A stretch of DNA of 40,951 bases, from positions 1-40,951 of the forward strand of contig CAMJJG010000023.1 in the NCBI GenBank assembly GCA_946406035.1, read 5' to 3'. Below are positions 6,707-29,843 of this stretch, in pieces. The first letter of the stretch is position 1, and every line of letters begins with the position of its first letter. The notes below the pieces were generated by a model. It was given only the letters and a program-made list of their open reading frames with translations, was not told the origin of the DNA and made no database searches. This stretch comes from an uncultured Prevotellaceae bacterium. Its GTDB lineage: Bacteria; Bacteroidota; Bacteroidia; Bacteroidales; Muribaculaceae. The position numbers and the translations under genes were made by a program.

Positions 6707-8419
6707 ATGAAACGTTTTAATTTCTATCTGAGCCTGATGCTGCTGTTGGTGACTGCCGCGGCTTGCAGCGATAAGTTTGACGATCCTGCAATGAACAATC
6801 CTGTTGCCAAGCACAGCCCCAACATGACCATTGCCGACTTCAAGGCCAAGTACTGGCAGGATGCTGTCAACTACATCGATACCATCAAGGAGGATATCGT
6901 CATCCACGGATGGGTAACCAGTACCGACGAGAGTGGCAATATCTACAAGAATCTCTACATCAGCGACGGCACTGCCGGCTTGTCCATCTCCATCAACCAG
7001 AATAACCTGTGTAACAAGTACCGCATCGGTCAGGAAATCGTCCTGCCGTTGAAGGGCTACTACATCGGCAAGTATAATGGCCAGCAACAGCTGGGTTATC
7101 CCGCATGGTATGATAAAGGTCTCACCTGGGAGGCTACATTCCTGCCCCAGGCCATGTGGGAGTCGATCGTTGAACTCAATGGCCTGCCCGACCCGTCTAG
7201 GGCCGAGGTGCAGCCCATCGAGGTGAGCCTGTCGGACTTCTGCAAGGACTTCTCGACAGCAACGCTGCTCAAGTATCAGGGCCGCCTGGTGCGCATCAGT
7301 GGTGTTTATTTCAAGGGCGCCGGGGAGCTTACTTACTCTGAGGAGGATGCTTCCTCTAACCGCACCATCTATGATGACGCGGGCAACGAGTTGACCCTGC
7401 GCAACAGCAATTATGCCGACTTCCGTTCCGAGGTGCTGCCTACGGGCAAGGTGGATATCGTCGGTATGCTGGGTTCCTATTCGAGCAACACATGGCAACT
7501 GTATCTGCGCACCATCGATGACGTGCATGTCATCGAGAAGGGCGAGAAGGGTAATCCCTTCAGCGTTGACGATGTGATTGCCAACCAGGGTACGTCTGGC
7601 TGGATGCAGGGTTATGCCGTGGGCGCTGTCGCCGCTGGCGTGACCACAGTGACCAGCAATAGCGACATCGAGTGGAACGCTCCTGTCACCCAGGGCACCA
7701 CCATGGTGCTCGCCCCCGTGAAGAATTGCCGTGACTACGCCCAGTGTGTTGTTGTCAATGTCCCCGAGGGCACCGATTTCTACAATAAGGGTAACCTCAA
7801 GGACTATCCCATCGTGCTGGGCACGATGGTCAATGTCAACGGCAACTTTGTCAGCCAGTATGGCATGCCTGGCGTTGTGACCAGTGGCTCGGCCCAGGAT
7901 TTCAAGCTCAGTGTCAATACCGGTCCCGCAACCGAGCTGGTCGAAACCTTTGACTCGGGGCTGCCCTCCAACTGGACCAACATCGCCGTTAGCGGCAACA
8001 AAGTGTGGACCTGGAGCGCCTATAGCGGCAACGGTTATGCTACCGTGACGGGCTACCAGGGCACCCAGCCCCCGTTTGACATCTGGCTCATCACCCCTGC
8101 GCTCGACCTTGAACAGGCAACGAACCGCTCATTCTCGTTCCGCACCCAGGTTAACCTGTATGGCAGCACAGCCAGCCACTTTGAGGCGTATGTTCTCGAT
8201 TCCACCGACCCGACCCTGGCCTCGGTCAAGGTTCAACTCAATCCCACGCTGGCCCAGGCTCCTGGTGCTTCGGGCTGGAGCAGTTGGGCTGGATCGGGTA
8301 ACGTTGACCTGAGCCAGTGGAATGATGGCATCTACTACATCGGCTTCCGCTACCATTCTGAGCAAGCCGCCAAATATGCGACCTGGTGCCTCGATGAGTT
8401 TAAATTTGGAGTACAGTGA
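6707..8419 (+). CDS. DUF5689/DUF6359 lipoprotein with choice-of-anchor J domain (paralog 1)
   Basis: 570-residue predicted surface lipoprotein. I start it at the ATG at 6707, because MKRFNFYLSLMLLLVTAAAC gives a clean lipobox with Cys20; an upstream in-frame ATG at 6665 would add 14 charged residues. Residues about 45-230 match DUF5689, an OB-fold-like ligand-binding module (HGWVTSTDESG, NLYISDGTAGLSISI). Residues about 285-410 match DUF6359 (GWMQGYAVGAV, SNSDIEWNAP). The C-terminal ~150 residues are a jelly-roll 'choice-of-anchor J' / cleaved-adhesin domain (WLITPALDL, WCLDEFKFG). It is 52 nt downstream of the receptor and 35 nt upstream of a close paralog. The inferred role is capture of substrate for the receptor and nuclease. 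Confidence 0.85.
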   Translation: MKRFNFYLSLMLLLVTAAACSDKFDDPAMNNPVAKHSPNMTIADFKAKYWQDAVNYIDTIKEDIVIHGWVTSTDESGNIYKNLYISDGTAGLSISINQNNLCNKYRIGQEIVLPLKGYYIGKYNGQQQLGYPAWYDKGLTWEATFLPQAMWESIVELNGLPDPSRAEVQPIEVSLSDFCKDFSTATLLKYQGRLVRISGVYFKGAGELTYSEEDASSNRTIYDDAGNELTLRNSNYADFRSEVLPTGKVDIVGMLGSYSSNTWQLYLRTIDDVHVIEKGEKGNPFSVDDVIANQGTSGWMQGYAVGAVAAGVTTVTSNSDIEWNAPVTQGTTMVLAPVKNCRDYAQCVVVNVPEGTDFYNKGNLKDYPIVLGTMVNVNGNFVSQYGMPGVVTSGSAQDFKLSVNTGPATELVETFDSGLPSNWTNIAVSGNKVWTWSAYSGNGYATVTGYQGTQPPFDIWLITPALDLEQATNRSFSFRTQVNLYGSTASHFEAYVLDSTDPTLASVKVQLNPTLAQAPGASGWSSWAGSGNVDLSQWNDGIYYIGFRYHSEQAAKYATWCLDEFKFGVQ

Positions 8420-8454: not shown

Positions 8455-10704
8455 ATGAAACGCTTTAATTATTATCTTGGACTGTTACTCATGCTGGTCG
8501 TTGTGACGTCATGTCATGAGGAGTTTGACCAGCCGCCAGTTTACATCCCGGTAGCCGATGCTGTCCCCAACATGACCATTGCCGAGTTCAAGGCCAAGCA
8601 CTGGCAGGATGCCACCAACTATGTGGACACGATTACCGAGGACGAGGTCATTCATGGCTGGGTGACAGCTAACGACATCAGCAACAACATCTACAGGACC
8701 GTCTACATCAGCGACGGCAGTGGAGCCATTTCGATATCGGTCAGCCAGAATGAGCTTTACACCAAGTACCGTGTGGGTCAGGAAGTCGTCCTGCCCATGA
8801 AGGGGCACTATGTGGGAAAAGCCACTGGACAGATGCATGTGTCGGCTCCCTACTGGTATGTCAACAACAATAACGACAGCACCCTGGAGTGCTACTACAT
8901 GTCCTCCAAGGAGCTGGAATCCCTTGTCCAGTTCAACCAATTGCCCAATCCCAGCAAGATTGACACGATCGACGTGAGCATCAGCGACTTCCAGAACAAG
9001 TTTGATGCCGAGACCTTGCTCAAGTACCAGGGATTGCTCGTCCGCATACGCGATGTTGAGTTTGTCGAGGCCGATGGCATTACTCCGTTTGCCGATGCCG
9101 GCAGCTCGAGCACTAACCGCACCATCAAGGATGGAAACGGTAATCAGCTCATCGTGCGCAACAGCAGGAGTGCCGACTTTGCCACCAAGCCGTTGCCAAT
9201 GGGACGCGTTGATCTGGTGGGTATCCTCGGATACTACCAGACGAGTTCCAGCACATGGCAGTTCTACCTGCGCACCGCCAGTGATGCGCCCGACAAGGGT
9301 AGCAAGGGAACCAAGAGCCTGCCTTATTCGGTTGCCGACGCAATCGAGGCCCAGAACACGGGCTGTCGTGGATGGGTTGAGGGTTACATCGTGGGCGCTG
9401 TCGCTCCCGAGGTGACTGCCGTTACCAGCAACTCTGATATCGAGTGGAAGGCTCCGACCATGCTCGAAAACACCATCGTTATTGCCGATGATCCCGAGTG
9501 CAAGGACTACACCAAGTGCCTGATTGTGCCCCTGGCACAAGGATCGCCATTCCGCACCGATGCCAATCTGAAAGATAAGGACAACTCCAATGTCTATAAG
9601 GCTCATCTCAAGGTGCTGGGTGATCTGGCCTCCTATATGGGCGTCGCTGGCATTACTGGCAACTCGGGTTCGACGAGCGAGTATGAGCTCGACGTGGCGC
9701 TGCTCAAGCTGGATGAGGACTTCAACGCCGGTGCCATTCCTGGCCGCTGGGTCAACCTCTCGCTGAGCGGTGGCAAGTTGTGGTCGATTTATTCCTATTC
9801 CAACGTCACTTGCGCCCAGTTCCGTCCCTTGTCAAGCAACGTGAATGTGGATTCCTGGTTGATCACACCGCGCCTGGATATCAAGAGGGCCAAGAGCAAG
9901 GTCTTCAACTTTACCTCCGAGGTGAATAATACAGGTAACATCGTCCTGGATGTCTATCTGCTCAACACCAACGATCCCAGAACTGCTACTGTCAAGATCA
10001 AGCTGAATCCCATCCTGCCGTCAAAGCCCGTGGGCAAGACCTATAGCGACTGGACCTCGTCGGGTGACATCGACCTGAGCCAGTGGGCCGACGGCGAGTA
10101 CTATATCGGCTTCAACTACAGTTCCCCCGCTGGCAATGACCTTACCACTTGGTGTCTCGACGATGTCACCTTCGGTATGGGTGAGCCTGCTCCGGCCGAC
10201 AATCGTGCCGACTTTGAGTCAATGGGAGCAACGTTGGGTCAGTGGGGCACCTTTACCTCGGCAAAGGGCTGGGTGGCTACCAACTGCATGTTGCTCAAGG
10301 GTGGAGCCCTTAATAGCAACCCCGTGTTCCAGTTTATCGGTTTTGTGCCCGGTTCGACAACCACCTATGCTGTCGCTCCGACGATGAACGGTAACACCAC
10401 GAGCGTGGGCAAGATTGTATCGCCCACGTTGAATGGTGGCATGACCCGTCTGCACTTCAACTACGGCTATGCCTTCTCGGGCACCCAGATTGCCTTCCGC
10501 GTCCAGGTGAAGCAGAATGGCAGTGTGGTCAAGAGCTGGGATGTGACCCAGTCGGGTGTAAGCAAGTACACGGTTTACACCTTTGATGAGAGCTGCCCCG
10601 TTAACGGCAAGTTCACCATCGAGTTTACCAACCTGAGCCCGTCGGCAGCCGCTTCCGAGAAAGACCGTCTTTCGATCTGGAATGTGGAGTGGGACCTTCC
10701 GTAA
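8455..10704 (+). CDS. DUF5689/DUF6359 lipoprotein with choice-of-anchor J domain (paralog 2, extended)
   Basis: 749-residue lipoprotein, signal MKRFNYYLGLLLMLVVVTSC with Cys20. It repeats the domain order of the gene before it: DUF5689 (HGWVTANDISN, YISDGSGAISISVSQN), DUF6359 (GWVEGYIVGAVAPEVTAVTS), then anchor-J (WLITPRLDI, WCLDDVTFGMG). It adds about 170 C-terminal residues (NRADFESMGATLG onward) that resemble a second jelly-roll/carbohydrate-binding-like domain. The shared signal peptide, domain order and near-identical stretches such as VPNMTIAEFKAKHWQDA indicate tandem duplication. It is 15 nt from the nuclease gene, so the two are co-transcribed. Confidence 0.85.
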   Translation: MKRFNYYLGLLLMLVVVTSCHEEFDQPPVYIPVADAVPNMTIAEFKAKHWQDATNYVDTITEDEVIHGWVTANDISNNIYRTVYISDGSGAISISVSQNELYTKYRVGQEVVLPMKGHYVGKATGQMHVSAPYWYVNNNNDSTLECYYMSSKELESLVQFNQLPNPSKIDTIDVSISDFQNKFDAETLLKYQGLLVRIRDVEFVEADGITPFADAGSSSTNRTIKDGNGNQLIVRNSRSADFATKPLPMGRVDLVGILGYYQTSSSTWQFYLRTASDAPDKGSKGTKSLPYSVADAIEAQNTGCRGWVEGYIVGAVAPEVTAVTSNSDIEWKAPTMLENTIVIADDPECKDYTKCLIVPLAQGSPFRTDANLKDKDNSNVYKAHLKVLGDLASYMGVAGITGNSGSTSEYELDVALLKLDEDFNAGAIPGRWVNLSLSGGKLWSIYSYSNVTCAQFRPLSSNVNVDSWLITPRLDIKRAKSKVFNFTSEVNNTGNIVLDVYLLNTNDPRTATVKIKLNPILPSKPVGKTYSDWTSSGDIDLSQWADGEYYIGFNYSSPAGNDLTTWCLDDVTFGMGEPAPADNRADFESMGATLGQWGTFTSAKGWVATNCMLLKGGALNSNPVFQFIGFVPGSTTTYAVAPTMNGNTTSVGKIVSPTLNGGMTRLHFNYGYAFSGTQIAFRVQVKQNGSVVKSWDVTQSGVSKYTVYTFDESCPVNGKFTIEFTNLSPSAAASEKDRLSIWNVEWDLP

Positions 10705-14546: not shown

Positions 14547-15415
14547 GACATGATCACTACTATTCGCTGTTAGCACTGCTGATGCTACTTCTCCATTGCC
14601 AGCCGTGCCTCGCCGGACGCTTTGTTGACGATTCCGTCAAGGTGGATGGGCACATGCGTCAGTTGGCGATGTATCTGCCAGACGGCTTGCAGGACGGAGC
14701 CCCGCTGGTGTTCATCCTGCATGGCTATGGAGCCGGCATCTGGCGCGAGAACCCGATGCTGGCGGCTGCCGACCGCCACGGCTATGCCGTGTGCCTGCCC
14801 CAGGGGCTGAAGGATCCGCAAGGGCAACCCAGCTGGAACGTGGGCTACCCCTTCCAGCAAGGGTGGCAAGTGGATGACGTCAAGGCCTTGTGCCACATGG
14901 CCCGCCATGTGCAGAGGCGGTACCGCCTGAGTCGCGAGAACACATTTCTCACGGGCATGTCTAACGGTGGCGAGATGTGCTACCTGATGGCCTATAGCAA
15001 GCAGCATACCTTCAAGGCCGTAGCTCCCATCGCGGGACTGACGATGGCGTGGATCTACCAGACCATGCAGGCTCAACGCCCCATCCCCTTGATGGAAATA
15101 CACGGTACCGCTGACAGCGTGTCGCAGTGGGCGGGCGACATGGACAACCAGGGTGGCTGGGGTGCCTATCTGTCCGTGCCTGTTGCCGTCGGATACTGGG
15201 TGGCGCGCAACCGCTGCACCAGTGTGACCGAGGAGCGTGTCGAGAGCCTAAAAGGTACCACGGGGCACCCTGTTGTCAAGCATCGTTACAGCAGTCCGTC
15301 GACAGGCTGTGACGTGTGGCTGTATGAGGTTATCGGCGGCCAGCACTCCTGGCACACTGCCGACATCGATACCGGTGAGGAAATCTGGCAATTCTTCTCC
15401 CAGTACCTCAAGTAA
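14543..15415 (+). CDS. Secreted alpha/beta-hydrolase esterase (PHB depolymerase / LpqC / feruloyl-esterase type)
   Basis: 290-residue exported esterase. A signal peptide covers about residues 1-24 (LLALLMLLLHCQPCLAG). The fold is marked by the oxyanion region FILHGYGAG, the nucleophile elbow TGMSNGGEM (Ser in G-x-S-x-G), the acid in IHGTADSV and the His in GGQHSWH. This set is typical of the PHB-depolymerase/CE1-like group, which removes acyl or feruloyl esters from polysaccharides or cleaves polyesters. The substrate cannot be decided here. It overlaps the permease gene by 4 bp (ATGA), so both are expected on one transcript. Confidence 0.87.
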   Translation: MRHDHYYSLLALLMLLLHCQPCLAGRFVDDSVKVDGHMRQLAMYLPDGLQDGAPLVFILHGYGAGIWRENPMLAAADRHGYAVCLPQGLKDPQGQPSWNVGYPFQQGWQVDDVKALCHMARHVQRRYRLSRENTFLTGMSNGGEMCYLMAYSKQHTFKAVAPIAGLTMAWIYQTMQAQRPIPLMEIHGTADSVSQWAGDMDNQGGWGAYLSVPVAVGYWVARNRCTSVTEERVESLKGTTGHPVVKHRYSSPSTGCDVWLYEVIGGQHSWHTADIDTGEEIWQFFSQYLK

Positions 15416-24444: not shown

Positions 24445-24452
24445 ATAAAAAA

Positions 24453-24477
24453 TGTAACTCTTGCGGAGAGTTACAAA
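24453..24477 (+). repeat. Left inverted repeat (IR-L) of the invertible segment
   Basis: The 25-bp repeat is an exact reverse complement of 25135-25159. It has arms GTAACTC and GAGTTAC around the asymmetric 7-nt core TTGCGGA (24461-24467). The identity stops just outside (AAACTG here against AAAACG in the reverse-complemented partner). Confidence 0.93.
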
Positions 24478-24484
24478 CTGCCTG

Positions 24485-24516
24485 CAAATTTAGATATAAA
24501 TAAATTAACGAGCAAA
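24485..24516 (-). promoter_or_regulatory. Switch promoter inside the invertible segment, now pointing left
   Basis: Read on the minus strand: TTTG (24513-24516), 20 nt, then TAAATTTG (24485-24492). This is a perfect Bacteroidota promoter. Transcription should begin near 24478-24481, at the inner edge of IR-L, and run left towards DUF554 and pldA. After inversion it would run right into the DUF4988 lipoprotein gene with a leader of about 95 nt. The right end of the segment shows no comparable outward promoter in the present orientation. Confidence 0.8.
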
Positions 24517-24585
24517 TAAAATAGCTAATTTTTGAAAATAATGATGTAAAATCTGAAATTTCATTTTCTCAAGTGTACTGGCAAT

Positions 24586-25002
24586 TCAAGACTGATGTTG
24601 AGCAATGACGTTACCCGTGACATACACTCTGATGAACTGATAGGGAGAGGCATTGGTTTTCAACACCGCGGCTTGCCTGAATTGCCCAGGACGAAGAGAC
24701 GGATCATAGGTAACAGTCATCGTGAGCGAATCTCCAGGTGGTAAAACGTCCTGTGAATAAGCGACTTGAGTGCATGGGCAGGTCGTTGAACCAGCCAGTA
24801 TCAAGAGCGGCGCACTGCCCACGCTCTTGAACTCAAAAGAGCACTCGACGGGTCCCCCGTCTTGCGGGATGTCGCCGAAATCGTAAGCCGCTTCACCCAC
24901 AATTTCAAATCTGGCACATGTGTCAGCAGTGCAATGGCCATCATCGGCCATCACACTGCACCATGTCATAATAAAGATGACGATAAAACAGATAAATCTC
25001 AT
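24586..25002 (-). CDS. DUF1573 secreted protein (cargo of the invertible segment)
   Basis: 138-residue exported protein with signal peptide MRFICFIVIFIMTWCSVMA. It is a single DUF1573 domain, an ASH/Ig-like beta-sandwich: YDFGDIPQDGGPVECSFEFKSVGSAPLLI, the Cys pair in STTCPCTQ, LPPGDSLTMTVTYDP and GQFRQAAVLKTNAS. Such small domains are common in the Bacteroidota periplasm and their role is unknown. It is wholly inside the inverted repeats, so its direction relative to its neighbours changes with the switch. Now it reads left towards DUF554; after inversion it would read right, upstream of the lipoprotein. The switch promoter lies just after its stop codon. Confidence 0.9.
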   Translation of the reverse strand: MRFICFIVIFIMTWCSVMADDGHCTADTCARFEIVGEAAYDFGDIPQDGGPVECSFEFKSVGSAPLLILAGSTTCPCTQVAYSQDVLPPGDSLTMTVTYDPSLRPGQFRQAAVLKTNASPYQFIRVYVTGNVIAQHQS

Positions 25003-25038
25003 AAAAAGTTATGTTCCGCAATCGTGCTTAGTAGTTGG

Positions 25039-25046
25039 CAAAATTA
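25039..25046 (-). promoter_or_regulatory. -7 promoter element of the DUF1573 gene
   Basis: TAATTTTG on the minus strand, 36 nt before the ATG at 25002. A TTG lies only 11 nt upstream, so the -33 element is not convincing. The promoter is inside the invertible segment and moves with its gene. Confidence 0.5.
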
Positions 25047-25134
25047 ATAAAAATAACCAATTGAGTGGTGCCTGTTTAAAGGGCGTGATAATACATACAA
25101 CTGCGTAAACGGCTGGTAAATAGCTCAGTATCGT

Positions 25135-25159
25135 TTTGTAACTCTCCGCAAGAGTTACA
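25135..25159 (-). repeat. Right inverted repeat (IR-R) of the invertible segment
   Basis: Exact 25-bp reverse complement of IR-L, with the core TCCGCAA at 25145-25151. Here the dyad is longer: arms TTTTGTAACTC and GAGTTACAAAA (11 bp) flank the core. It ends 69 bp before the lipoprotein start codon. Confidence 0.93.
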
Positions 25160-25228: not shown

Positions 25229-28060
25229 ATGCGTAAACGTTTTTTGAGCTCATTGTTTGCGGGTCTTTTGCTTTTTGCGGGGGCCACAAGCATGTTTACA
25301 TCTTGCAAGGACTATGATGACGACATCGAGCGCTTGCAAGAGCAGATTGACAAGAACGCCAAGGCTATTGACCAGTTGAACAACCTGATTACCGACGGTA
25401 GCGTAATCAAGGAAGTGAAGAAGGTAGCCAATGGCATTGAGGTCATTATGAGTAATGGTAACACCTACACCATTACCAATGGTACTGATGCAGTAGTATG
25501 GACCATCGGTGAGGACGGTTACTGGTACCAGGACGGCAAGAAGACCGATTACTATGCAATCGGTAAGGATGGCGCCAACGGTATGAACGGTACCAACGGC
25601 ACCAACGGTATCTATTACGTGCCCAATGCCGAGACCGGCTGCTGGGACATCTACAATGGCGATGGCACCTTGAAGGAGCACACTACCATCTCGTGGAAGG
25701 CAGCCTCCAGCAACATGATCACCGCTGTCATGGACGGAAGCGACCTCAAGCTCTACAATGTAATGATGGGCGAGGGCTATACCGATGTTACTGTTGCCTT
25801 GAGCAATGCCCTGCGTGGTTTTGTATTCAAGCCCGAGGTGTATGTTGACGGTGTTCCCGCCATCCGCGTTGCATCCTACGGCTATCGTGCGCTCACCGTC
25901 AGCAGCAAGGATAAGCCCAGTGCCGAGAAGTATAACGAGAGCGGTGACAGCATCTTTGTTTCACCCAAGGTTTATGCTTACTACCACGTGAACCCCACCA
26001 ACGCAAACGTTGATGACCTGAAGAATCTGACCTTTGTGGTACAGGCTAACGATGACTACCTGGTAACCCGCCGTGCTCCTGCCAGCAACGACTTTAATGT
26101 TACCGCCAAGTTTGCCGACTTCAAGGACGGTATCCTCAAGGTTGAGGTTAACGTGACCGGCAAGCCCGCTACCAACGAGAAGATCTCGGTAGTTGCCCTG
26201 CAGACCACCAAGGAGAATGGCGAGAACGTGACCAGTGACTATGCCACCGTGATCAAGAAGAACATGGTTGACCTGCGCATTGCCGACAAGGACCGCTTTG
26301 CCCGTGGCAATGACTATCACTACCGCCGCTTCCTGGCTCAGCTCGACAACGAGGCTGGTATCGCAAACCACACCGTTATCGAGAAGGATGAGGCCAACAA
26401 CACCTGTGACCTGGTGATGCTCTATGACGAGGCATTCGACGTCGAGAAGTATGTTGAGGCTCATGAGCTGCTGAGCCCGCACAAGATCGCTGACCTGCAG
26501 GCTCTGGGCATGGAGTTCAAGTATGAGCTCGTTAACGGATACACCGTTGGTGACCCCAATGGCACCGATCAGGCCGAGTATGTTGAGTGGGTTAACGAGA
26601 ACCACACGATCCTCAAGGTTAAGGATAAATATGGCACGTCGGCAATCGACCGCACCCCCATCGTGCGCGTGCTGTTGATGCACGGCAACAAGGTGGTGAA
26701 GGTGGCCTACATCAAGATCAAGATTGCCCGCAAGGGTGTCCTTATCGACGATCCTCAAGTGACCATCGTTGTTGACGACTTCGCATTTGAGTGCGGCAAG
26801 AATGGCGTGAGTGGCTATGACTACAAGACCATGAGCCTCTACATCCTTGCACCCTATGGCTACAGCAAGGACGAGTTCCACTCATTCTATCCCATCCCTG
26901 TTGACTATGTTGATCCCACCGACGTGGGTACCGTTACCGAGGGTCCCGGTCTTACCGAGGAAGGCACCAACGTGCTCGTATGGACCATCTCTAACAACGA
27001 CCTGTGGAATCTGGCCGGCCAGACCGTTACCAACAAGTTCCGCTACTACACCAGCGATCGCAAGCACTACTTCGAGGTTGTCCTCAAGGCTACGATCAAG
27101 CCCGTTCAGAAGTCCTATAATGTGACCACGAGCCAGTACATCAGCAACTATTGGGATGCCGCCAAGACCTATGCCCGCTTCAACGTTGCTGTTCCCCAGT
27201 CGACCAATGACAGCAATCCCAACCATTGCCTGTATGACAATGACCTCAACTCGCCGTTCGTTACCAATAACCTGGGCGTACTTGAGATCGACAGCAAGAT
27301 CACTCAGATTGAGTACTTCTTCTGCAAGAGCCACATGCACAACAAGAGCATTGCCGGCAAGACCGTGACCATCTCGGCCAATGGCTTGCAGATGTACGTC
27401 GGCAACGAGCTGATTGCTACTATCATCAACAATGATGCTCCTGTTGCAAACCATATCGTCCTGAACAAGTCGAGCCAGATCGCTAAGGAGATGCTCAACA
27501 CCAAGAACCTGCAGGTTTACATCCAGGCCGTTGGTTACATCTGCGGTGAGAAGGGTGGCCAGAACACCAAGACCGTGAGCATCACCTTCAACGGTGAGGA
27601 CCACTATGTAGCTAAGTACATCCGTCCCATCGAGGCCGAGACGCTCGCAAGCGAGGGCTTTATCGACGGTGTTGACTTCGGCGAGAAGGGTTCTTACATC
27701 TCGATGGACAAGCTGGTTGTGCTGCATGACTGGCGCACCCGTGCCTTTGCGCAGTATCCCAACTACTGGGGCTACTATGGTCCGTTCTCCTTCGAGGCCG
27801 ACCTGGCAAACGCTACCTGTGACCTGGAGGTTAACGGTTCGACTGCCGAGAAGCCCGTTCCCTCGACCATCGAGCTCAAGCAAGTTGCTGGAACACCTCA
27901 CGACCTGATTACCTACAAGAACAACGGTACTGTTGTGAACAAGGACTTCAACATCTTTGTAAGGGTTAAGGTTAACTATGGTTGGGGTTCATTCTGGACC
28001 GATAAGATCACGGTTCCCGTATCCAAGACCATCACTCCTGCTGGTGCAAAGAGAAACTAA
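25229..28060 (+). CDS. Large surface lipoprotein, DUF4988-type N-terminus
   Basis: 943-residue predicted lipoprotein. The signal ends at the lipobox FTSC with Cys26, followed by KDYDDD, which resembles the acidic export signal that sends Bacteroidota lipoproteins to the cell surface. Residues about 30-55 (ERLQEQIDKNAKAIDQLNNLI) form a short coiled coil. Then come a DUF4988-like region with EVIMSNGNTYTITNG and a collagen-like DGANGMNGTNGTNG stretch (about 112-126). The remaining ~780 residues look like repeated beta-sandwich domains that I cannot name. No catalytic motif is seen, so adhesion or glycan binding is plausible but unproven. No consensus promoter lies between IR-R and the ATG or at the right end of the segment as it now stands, so the gene is probably OFF in this orientation. 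A strong terminator follows. Confidence 0.83.
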   Translation: MRKRFLSSLFAGLLLFAGATSMFTSCKDYDDDIERLQEQIDKNAKAIDQLNNLITDGSVIKEVKKVANGIEVIMSNGNTYTITNGTDAVVWTIGEDGYWYQDGKKTDYYAIGKDGANGMNGTNGTNGIYYVPNAETGCWDIYNGDGTLKEHTTISWKAASSNMITAVMDGSDLKLYNVMMGEGYTDVTVALSNALRGFVFKPEVYVDGVPAIRVASYGYRALTVSSKDKPSAEKYNESGDSIFVSPKVYAYYHVNPTNANVDDLKNLTFVVQANDDYLVTRRAPASNDFNVTAKFADFKDGILKVEVNVTGKPATNEKISVVALQTTKENGENVTSDYATVIKKNMVDLRIADKDRFARGNDYHYRRFLAQLDNEAGIANHTVIEKDEANNTCDLVMLYDEAFDVEKYVEAHELLSPHKIADLQALGMEFKYELVNGYTVGDPNGTDQAEYVEWVNENHTILKVKDKYGTSAIDRTPIVRVLLMHGNKVVKVAYIKIKIARKGVLIDDPQVTIVVDDFAFECGKNGVSGYDYKTMSLYILAPYGYSKDEFHSFYPIPVDYVDPTDVGTVTEGPGLTEEGTNVLVWTISNNDLWNLAGQTVTNKFRYYTSDRKHYFEVVLKATIKPVQKSYNVTTSQYISNYWDAAKTYARFNVAVPQSTNDSNPNHCLYDNDLNSPFVTNNLGVLEIDSKITQIEYFFCKSHMHNKSIAGKTVTISANGLQMYVGNELIATIINNDAPVANHIVLNKSSQIAKEMLNTKNLQVYIQAVGYICGEKGGQNTKTVSITFNGEDHYVAKYIRPIEAETLASEGFIDGVDFGEKGSYISMDKLVVLHDWRTRAFAQYPNYWGYYGPFSFEADLANATCDLEVNGSTAEKPVPSTIELKQVAGTPHDLITYKNNGTVVNKDFNIFVRVKVNYGWGSFWTDKITVPVSKTITPAGAKRN

Positions 28061-28173: not shown

Positions 28174-28515
28174 ATGGCAAAAAGATTATTTCAAGCACTG
28201 GTGATCGCCGGCCTAGTGGCGACGGTCATCTCATGTGGCAAGAGTGCTGCCGAGGGTCCCGTGACGGGCAAGTATGTCGATGAGTTCGGCAACGAGTTTG
28301 AGTTGCGCGAGGACCACACGGCCACGATCCAGTTTGACGGCCAGGACAAGGTCAACGAGACCCGCTGGCATGACGGAGCCAACAATGACACCTCGTTTGT
28401 GACGATTGAGTACAATGGTGATACCACCTATTTCTATATGAGTCATGGCAAACTGTATCGTCATCTCGAGGATATGAAACAGGGGCACCCAGCCATCGAG
28501 CTGGAACGCCGTTGA
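28174..28515 (+). CDS. Small lipoprotein of unknown function
   Basis: 113-residue protein. I start at ATG 28174, which gives MAKRLFQALVIAGLVATVISC, a lipoprotein signal with Cys21; a TTG at 28105 lies inside the upstream terminator. The body is short and beta-rich (GKYVDEFGNEFELREDHTATIQFDGQDKVNETRWH), resembling lipocalin-like/META-type small domains. I cannot assign a family with confidence. It sits between two terminators (28108-28151 and 28566-28593), so it is likely its own unit, located between the switch-controlled lipoprotein and the recombinase. Confidence 0.75.
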   Translation: MAKRLFQALVIAGLVATVISCGKSAAEGPVTGKYVDEFGNEFELREDHTATIQFDGQDKVNETRWHDGANNDTSFVTIEYNGDTTYFYMSHGKLYRHLEDMKQGHPAIELERR

Positions 28516-28593: not shown

Positions 28594-28817
28594 TTTTCTT
28601 TGCACTGAGTAGAATCCAGTCTATAAATAAGGTCCCCCTAATTCTATGGTGTGGAGAGTGACCAGATGAATAGTCGCCATGCCCTCGCATCATGTTAAAT
28701 TACTTGTTTCTATAGGAGTTTTCGGCAAATATTCCGTTAGTCATATAGAGAAACCTCTGAATACTGTATTATCGATACTTGCTTATAAAAATAATAGTAA
28801 TCTTAAAAAGAATTGCA

Positions 28818-29843
28818 ATGTCCAGAATTGTATTAGACCTGAAAATTAATGGTGTTGACGTGTCACAGCATGAGTTTGTGTTGAGGATAAATGGAAGCAC
28901 CGTCAGCCATGAGACCAGTGTTGCATCCATCATGCATCCCAGCCCGCAAGGCTCGTTTATCACATTTATTCACGACGAGATACAGCGGATGCTCTCGAAT
29001 CATCGTGCCCGCTCAGCCGAGATTCACAAGAGCGTGCTCTCCCAGTTCAGGCAGTACCTAGGTGCTGAAACCGATATCGCCTTTGATGAGGTGACAAGTA
29101 CAGTGATCAAGCGCTTTGAGGAGCATCTGCAGGCGCGTGGCCTGTCGTTGAACACGATATCGTTCAACATGAGGGTGCTGCGCTCGTGCTACAACAGGGG
29201 CGTGCATCAGTACCAGCTAGCCGACCGTCAGCCGTTCAAGCACGTGTTCACGGGCATCGAGCAGACCGACAAGCGCGCCCTTGACATCGAGGCCATCAAG
29301 CTCATCAGGCAGTGCGAGCCAGCCAGTTATGACGATCGGTTTGCGCGCGATATGTTCCTGTTCAGTTTCTTTACCCGCGGCATGTCGTTTGTAGACATGG
29401 CCTATCTCAAGCGCGACAGCATCAAGAACGGCAACCTGTATTACAAGCGCCACAAGACGGGCCAGAGCATCACCGTGAAGTGGGAGCGATGCATGCAGGA
29501 GATTGTTGACCGTTACAGTGAGCGTGGCACTTGCTACCTGCTGCCGATCATACACACGTGTAATGGCAAGGAGCGCAATCAGTACCGCGGCATGCAGCAC
29601 AAGGTGAACAGCTGCCTCAAGAGGGTCGCGGCCCTGTGTGGCCTAGAGACCAACCTGACGATGTATGTTGCCCGCCACTCGTGGGCACAAGCGGCCAACA
29701 GCCTTAACCAGCCGCTGGAGCTCATCAGTTATGGCATGGGGCACACCTCGACCAAGACGACCAAGATCTACCTGCACTCGATCAGCATGTCGCAGATCGA
29801 CCAGTTGAACACTACCGTCTTGCAGGAGGTTGAGGCGCTGTGA
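28818..29843 (+). CDS. Tyrosine recombinase, candidate invertase of the upstream switch
   Basis: 341-residue site-specific recombinase, starting at ATG 28818 (a TTG at 28779 would add 13 residues with no family support). An N-terminal ~70-residue part is followed by a SAM-like core-binding domain (about 70-160: KSVLSQFRQYLG, LNTISFNMRVLRSCYN). The catalytic domain has R187 (FFTRGMSFVDM), K213 (KRHKTGQ), R286 (YVARHSW; Tyr283 stands where many members have His), H309 (GMGHTS) and the nucleophile Y318 (KIYLHS), nine residues after H309. The set is intact. No relaxase, mobilisation or phage genes are nearby, so it is an orphan recombinase. This matches the Tsr-type invertases that flip surface-gene promoters in Bacteroides. 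Pairing it with the 24453-25159 repeats is inferred from proximity. Confidence 0.9.
   Translation: MSRIVLDLKINGVDVSQHEFVLRINGSTVSHETSVASIMHPSPQGSFITFIHDEIQRMLSNHRARSAEIHKSVLSQFRQYLGAETDIAFDEVTSTVIKRFEEHLQARGLSLNTISFNMRVLRSCYNRGVHQYQLADRQPFKHVFTGIEQTDKRALDIEAIKLIRQCEPASYDDRFARDMFLFSFFTRGMSFVDMAYLKRDSIKNGNLYYKRHKTGQSITVKWERCMQEIVDRYSERGTCYLLPIIHTCNGKERNQYRGMQHKVNSCLKRVAALCGLETNLTMYVARHSWAQAANSLNQPLELISYGMGHTSTKTTKIYLHSISMSQIDQLNTTVLQEVEAL

Follow-up and report, generated by a model that had tools for sequence, protein, structure and literature searches.

The stretch of DNA analysed here, 40,951 nucleotides long and hereafter called the window, contains two 25-nt inverted arms (24453-24477 and 25135-25159) that are 100% complementary, leave 657 nt between them and precede the gene of a 943-residue surface lipoprotein; the coordinates given for arms and gene in a preliminary description of this DNA are right (Table 1). 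Among inverted pairs of at least 18 nt, the only other one in the window is of 18 nt at 94%. A chance origin of the pair had been called negligible, and the counts agree: the 21-bp inner core, allowing up to three mismatches, has two matches in the window and none in 100 dinucleotide shuffles. The whole 2.23-Mb genome holds these two copies and one match with three mismatches, and no further copy of the site with two mismatches or fewer. The inverted repeats enclose a promoter predicted from its motif, together with the gene that the segment had been said to carry, which encodes a DUF1573 protein on the minus strand and is the only ORF recognised there. The lipoprotein gene is followed by that of a small lipoprotein, which is possibly lipocalin-like, and by a tyrosine recombinase gene whose probable start codon lies 3.7 kb from the right arm, the distance previously reported.

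Table 1. Coordinates of the features of the switch locus in the window
Feature	Position	Strand	Remarks
U-tract: A6 on the plus strand, U6 for leftward transcripts	24447..24452	-	directly after the site hairpin; terminator-like with the site, on the OFF exit
Distal recombination site, 23-bp palindromic core	24453..24475	+	perfect repeat reaches 24477
Bacteroidota promoter motif TTTG-N20-TAAATTTG	24485..24516	-	perfect motif match, 9 bp inside the distal site, leftward (OFF)
Passenger gene, DUF1573, 138 aa	24586..25002	-	signal-like N-terminus, Ig-like fold family; on the invertible segment
TAATTTTG box, possible own promoter of the passenger	25039..25046	-	36 bp upstream of the DUF1573 start; consensus match only
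Proximal recombination site, inverted copy	25137..25159	-	perfect repeat begins at 25135
Target, 943-aa surface lipoprotein, DUF4988 N-terminus	25229..28060	+	
Small downstream lipoprotein	28174..28515	+	adjoins the target in 9/10 switch loci; the tenth contig ends first
Tyrosine recombinase, candidate invertase	28779..29843	+	probable ATG start at 28818

The N-terminus of the lipoprotein matches DUF4988, the type of target previously assigned to it, and shows, when read by eye, a lipobox-like Cys followed by an acidic stretch. The first part of the protein is conserved and the rest is more variable, mean pairwise identity being 0.72 at residues 1-60 and about 0.4 at residues 601-780. Its predicted structure consists of beta-rich domains in a chain (pLDDT 75.9, pTM 0.44), and the top Foldseek match to it is the S-layer protein EA1 (E 6e-10) with a TM-score of only 0.12, and the next matches are unrelated multi-domain proteins. 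With such a score and such neighbours, the model supports the protein only as a predicted chain of Ig-like domains. The recombinase contains the Pfam domains Phage_int_SAM_5 and Phage_integrase. Sequence searches of the PDB were uninformative for the lipoprotein and for the DUF1573 protein, and for the recombinase they returned only a short integron-integrase match.

Orientation of the segment across the genus

DNA matches to the region were found in 14 of the 101 genomes of the genus, four of them short and weak; these four (G031, G054, G063 and G075) gave no tblastn match to the queried neighbourhood proteins and were not counted. The lipoprotein was matched in 12 of the 101 genomes, from which G013 (a truncated gene on a 4-kb contig) and G005 (a weak N-terminal match) were left out, the upstream region being complete in the other ten. 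All ten evaluable loci have exactly two inverted sites (up to three mismatches) with 562-1116 bp between them, one DUF1573 gene inside the segment that passes the PF07610 cut-off, and a perfect outward promoter motif beside one of the sites. Over the 410 kb of strand sequence of the ten loci there are 22 such motifs, including the ten adjacent to a site, and the two strands of the 41-kb window together contain only five motifs of this type (spacing 19-20). None of the 101 genomes holds a second pair of exact-arm sites.

Orientation was judged by the DUF1573 gene and the promoter motif, with one assembly per species. The opposite orientation was sought in the related genomes and found, each orientation being represented by five of the ten species: the promoter points away from the lipoprotein (OFF) in G000, G085, G021, G018 and G036, a set to which the window belongs, and towards it (ON) in G048, G095, G081, G064 and G017. 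Between the window and G048, the inner DNA is 77% identical on the minus strand and the right flank 91% identical on the plus strand. A scan of 400 bp beginning at the right site showed no plus-strand promoter motif, either in the window or in the nine related loci; as the predicted promoter of the window is directed leftward, its lipoprotein looks OFF in this assembly. On a tree of the lipoprotein, which is not a tree of the species, three sister pairs (G000/G048, G085/G095 and G036/G017) are each in opposite states, five orientation changes are needed, a number also obtained in bootstraps, and orientation is unclustered when compared with shuffled labels. The lipoprotein lies on the right of the segment in all ten loci. 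The left neighbour varies, being a leftward DUF554 gene in six loci and the recombinase in G021 and G064, with neither matched in G036 and G017. In G068 and G061, which retain DUF554 and PLA1, the genes of the module are missing next to DUF554 (DUF554 was found in 2 of the 18 genomes searched).

Homologues of the recombinase (E up to 1e-40) are present, one each, in 13 of the 101 genomes, namely in all ten with the switch and in three of the 91 others (Fisher p 1.5e-11, a value that ignores shared ancestry). Recombinase and switch share a contig in eight of the ten switch genomes, and in G021 and G064 the recombinase match stops 10 and 13 bp, respectively, before the left (distal) site. The homologue is on another contig in G036 and G017, which are also the two genus loci devoid of the U-tract described below. 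Four of the 12 inner branches of the recombinase tree are well supported. No site pair of the window type was found around the recombinases of G034, G040, G099, G036 (C36) and G017 (C98).

Two observations were made near these other recombinases. About 3.9 kb past the homologue of G034 (L129), a perfect 19-nt inverted pair (14817-14835 and 15051-15069, 215 nt apart) sits between divergent genes for secreted-looking proteins of 1255 and 1000 aa and has a TAnnTTTG box 10 bp inside one arm, so that, of the three genomes with the recombinase but no window-type switch detected, one or more may carry a switch of another kind. A diverged site is located in G040 (L130, position 10614), 28 bp past the homologue and near the contig end, where the rest of the locus is missing.

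Recombination sites, promoter and exits of the segment

Each arm is itself a palindrome, TGTAACTCT-TGCGG-AGAGTTACA, made of 9-bp arms and a 5-bp centre, and the core is therefore 23 bp long; it is this centre that sets the two copies in opposite orientation, and the identity between arms ends at the outer edge of the 23-bp core in eight of ten loci. Core sites of tyrosine recombinases are composed of short arms around a short spacer, a layout that the window sites fit. The sites have the form GTAAC-N11-GTTAC and lack the GTTAC...GTAAC palindrome of the Bacteroides repeat class. The sites were compared among 13 loci of this type, ten from the genus, two from Prevotella and one from G796, a genome of another family. 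Within a locus, the two copies agree in their central 7 bp in 13/13 cases, but 69 of the 78 comparisons between loci show a difference there, a pattern that strand exchange in the spacer would maintain. Mismatches between the copies of one locus (G018 and G064) are confined to the outer arms.

The promoter motif lies 9-10 bp from the site in 12 of the 13 loci and 18 bp from it in G081, so that the ON mRNA should begin near the hairpin. The DUF1573 gene is oriented like this promoter and could thus be read into the lipoprotein only in the ON state. A TAnnTTTG box is present within 80 bp upstream of the mechanical DUF1573 start in six of ten loci. On a DUF1573 tree, six of the ten passengers constitute one supported clade apart from the other DUF1573 proteins of the genus, the tree leaving the remaining four unresolved, and 11 of the 12 core DUF1573 rows group together (90/91, not starred).

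On the OFF exit, directly outside the distal site, a run of five or more U comes after the hairpin in 11 of the 13 loci (eight of ten in the genus, the exceptions being G036 and G017, and three of three elsewhere); the ON exit has such a run in none of the 13. As a background, 73 of the 5710 nine-base windows of the left flanks contain such a run. A terminator scan of the region picked up the left site of the window on the minus strand; it yielded two sites in all, with 2.1 expected from shuffles, and the stem has only three G-C pairs. Folding of 61-nt RNAs gave the hairpin at both exits, with -11.9 kcal/mol on the OFF exit (another small stem included) and -16.2 kcal/mol on the ON exit. Since the fold of the right site is at least as good as that of the left site, the exits are told apart by the U-tract only. 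Taken at the level of sequence, these features indicate that the crossover site may double as a terminator, exclusively on the exit that should be silent.

Related units and other candidate switches in the order

A scan of the named genomes with exact arms returned 20 stretches, comprising nine that probably belong to species of the genus already found, four from two Prevotella contigs and seven single palindromes, which were taken as chance; tblastn found no module genes near one of these palindromes (L087). A circularly permuted form of the locus, with lipoprotein and recombinase between the sites, is present in two Prevotella genomes and in G796. The segment between the sites of Prevotella RGIG2926 and UBA2746 comprises the lipoprotein, a small lipoprotein and the recombinase; the promoter motif is found beyond the sites, 9-10 bp from the distal one. 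Both also have a second promoter motif between the proximal site and the lipoprotein (8006-8037 in the joined stretches L088 and L082; 5665-5695 in the joined stretches L093 and L096), and the lipoprotein there may consequently have a basal promoter. The lipoprotein-recombinase unit is 97-98% identical between these two Prevotella and its left edge falls within 4 bp of the site, whereas the left host flanks are 72-76% identical and the right neighbours differ; this disparity between unit and left flanks suggests a recent transfer. G796 shares the layout of the Prevotella unit with diverged arms. The DUF1573 protein of the window had no tblastn match in the two Prevotella units or in the G796 stretch.

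An order-wide profile search for the lipoprotein matched 13 of 393 genomes, window included, and 13 stretches of the other 12 genomes were read for perfect inverted repeats of at least 15 nt. Repeats suggestive of inversion lie beside the lipoprotein in five of the 12 (G796, G547, G705, G624 and G518). A recombinase match by tblastn was obtained in the stretches of these five genomes and of no others; in those of the remaining seven, the recombinase was not matched and no clear pair of repeats adjoined the gene. In G518 (L188), the two copies of a perfect 107-bp inverted repeat (7122-7228 and 9057-9163) span the 5' ends of two divergent lipoprotein genes, with a tyrosine recombinase gene between the copies; this segment may toggle between the two lipoproteins. 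In G705 (L196, 8637-9816) and G624 (L197, 9273-10556), it is the recombinase gene that lies between the inverted repeats, a DUF4988-type lipoprotein gene follows downstream, and a promoter motif points outward; GTTAC-N7-GTAAC is found in the repeat of G624 and in one of the two copies of G705. G547 (L195, 9853-10156) has 25-bp palindromic inverted repeats, 254 bp apart, between recombinase and lipoprotein, and is a candidate for a promoter-type switch devoid of passenger. Sites were also seen in six other family genomes (G402, G256, G357, G129, G212 and G210), in which the queried proteins had no tblastn match; in G212 (L123), two inverted palindromes at 6870 and 7034, 164 bp apart and with near-identical inner arms, may delimit an invertible segment. 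These arrangements suggest that, in different parts of the order, a single lipoprotein family has come under inversion systems of several architectures, including promoter flips, operon flips, a recombinase inside the segment and a possible two-gene toggle.

A probable phase-variation switch and its known relatives

Local promoter inversion, the reading advanced in the preliminary description, is supported by the two orientations between species, the outward Bacteroidota promoter motif and the co-occurring tyrosine recombinase, and we consider the window locus to be a phase-variation switch of the lipoprotein by segment inversion with a probability of about 0.92. The two palindromic sites would be paired by a tyrosine recombinase, the best candidate being the product of the linked gene at 28.8-29.8 kb, and strand exchange in the central spacer would then invert the segment, as the comparison between species indicates. 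In the ON state, the outward promoter, 9-18 bp from the proximal site, would drive the lipoprotein and the small downstream lipoprotein. In the OFF state, that of the window assembly, the promoter would point the other way and its transcript would form the site hairpin and meet the U-tract of the fixed flank, so that transcription should stop at once, with no promoter motif remaining before the lipoprotein. The DUF1573 passenger is co-oriented with this promoter and may have one of its own; it would then be expressed in either state, with transcription continuing into the lipoprotein in the ON state alone. The likely purpose would be a bistable display of the surface protein, as for the S-layer lipoproteins of Bacteroides.

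The terminator-like score of the left copy on the minus strand fits an explanation of the two palindromes as ordinary terminators of the DUF1573 gene and its neighbours, identical by accident and without any inversion. This is barely credible given that half of the species have the inner DNA turned around with respect to the flanks, that the spacer is the same in both copies yet changes between loci and that the proximal copy has no U-tract in 13/13 loci. Separate insertions, in either orientation, of a small IS- or MITE-like mobile element with palindromic ends upstream of the lipoprotein would account for the lack of module genes beside the DUF554 and PLA1 kept by G068 and G061, and for the near identity of the related unit in two Prevotella. 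This is highly improbable, because the fixed flanks keep their features in both orientations (U-tract on the left in 8/10 loci, on the right in 0/10), the distance between promoter and site is kept, the segment has no recognised ORF except the DUF1573 gene and none of the 101 genomes has a second exact-arm pair.

It is very unlikely that the switch mainly controls the DUF1573 passenger or the left-hand gene: the OFF promoter does face the left neighbour, a leftward DUF554 gene in six of ten loci, but a hairpin and U-tract stand on this leftward exit in eight of ten, and the left neighbour is inconstant while the lipoprotein is always on the right. The identity of the enzyme leaves more latitude. 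A real inversion performed by another recombinase (XerC/D-like, or an invertase acting in trans), with the linked gene unrelated, would agree with the location of the homologue on another contig in G036 and G017 and with the BF2766 enzyme of B. fragilis, which is described as serving a local and a distant promoter (PMC4747536). We judge it unlikely in view of the co-occurrence of recombinase and switch (10/10 against 3/91), the end of the recombinase match 10 or 13 bp before the distal site in G021 and G064, and the inclusion of the recombinase gene in the unit of Prevotella and G796.

Within the switch reading, a broader and doubtful proposal combines two ideas. The site would be both a recombination site and a direction-dependent terminator completed by the U-tract of the fixed flank, the OFF state being thereby actively insulated; and the whole module (site, promoter and DUF1573, site, lipoprotein, small lipoprotein, recombinase) would exist as linear cuts of one circle, represented by the types of the window, of G064 and of Prevotella and G796. 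If so, the module may pass from one genome to another as a circular cassette that uses its own sites for insertion.

Among openly licensed papers, the combination of DUF1573 and "invertible" gave no match; among those listed, DUF4988 occurred in none, and nothing close on phase variation in the rumen or in Muribaculaceae appeared from titles and the beginnings of abstracts; as the search was limited to such papers, these negatives are weak evidence of novelty. Promoter inversion by tyrosine recombinases before surface genes is itself well known in Bacteroides from the published accounts, here represented by excerpts (PMC12548429, PMC4747536, PMC12118408, PMC12632263). By its architecture, the window locus resembles the BT1927 S-layer lipoprotein switch of B. 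thetaiotaomicron, with which it shares a promoter between inverted and internally palindromic repeats, a surface lipoprotein operon and a nearby integrase (PMC12548429, PMC12118408). It differs from the excerpted description of that switch by the DUF1573 gene carried on its segment and by its sites, GTAAC...GTTAC in the window, whereas the 19-bp repeat of BT1927 (CCGTTACCTABVRAGTAAC) is a GTTAC...GTAAC palindrome (PMC12118408), a consensus that the repeat of the DUF4988-type relative in G624 does fit. The Tsr19/BF2766 system of B. fragilis likewise involves a tyrosine recombinase, a TAnnTTTG promoter and surface targets, including a cluster with a lipoprotein gene, and transcription there decreases as more repeats separate the promoter from the genes (PMC4747536); the enzyme serves more than one promoter, whereas the window genome has a single site pair. 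On these sequence comparisons, the predicted switch of the window is a novel variant of the Bacteroidota Tsr-type promoter inversion.

The CwpV switch of Clostridioides difficile offers a parallel for the silent exit, its OFF state being explained by a predicted intrinsic terminator at the repeat junction (PMC2784873). In CwpV, the inverted DNA does not include the promoter, which stays fixed, and the terminator forms in one orientation only, whereas the promoter motif of the window genus is inside the segment in 10/10 loci and the U-tract is in the fixed flank. The switch described here adds uncultured Bacteroidales, many of ruminant origin, to the bacteria with phase-variable surface lipoproteins, in an unusually clean comparative case of ten loci, five ON and five OFF. 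Relative to the excerpts of the literature compared, it adds a DUF1573 passenger on the flipping segment and a recombination hairpin that is terminator-like on one exit only.
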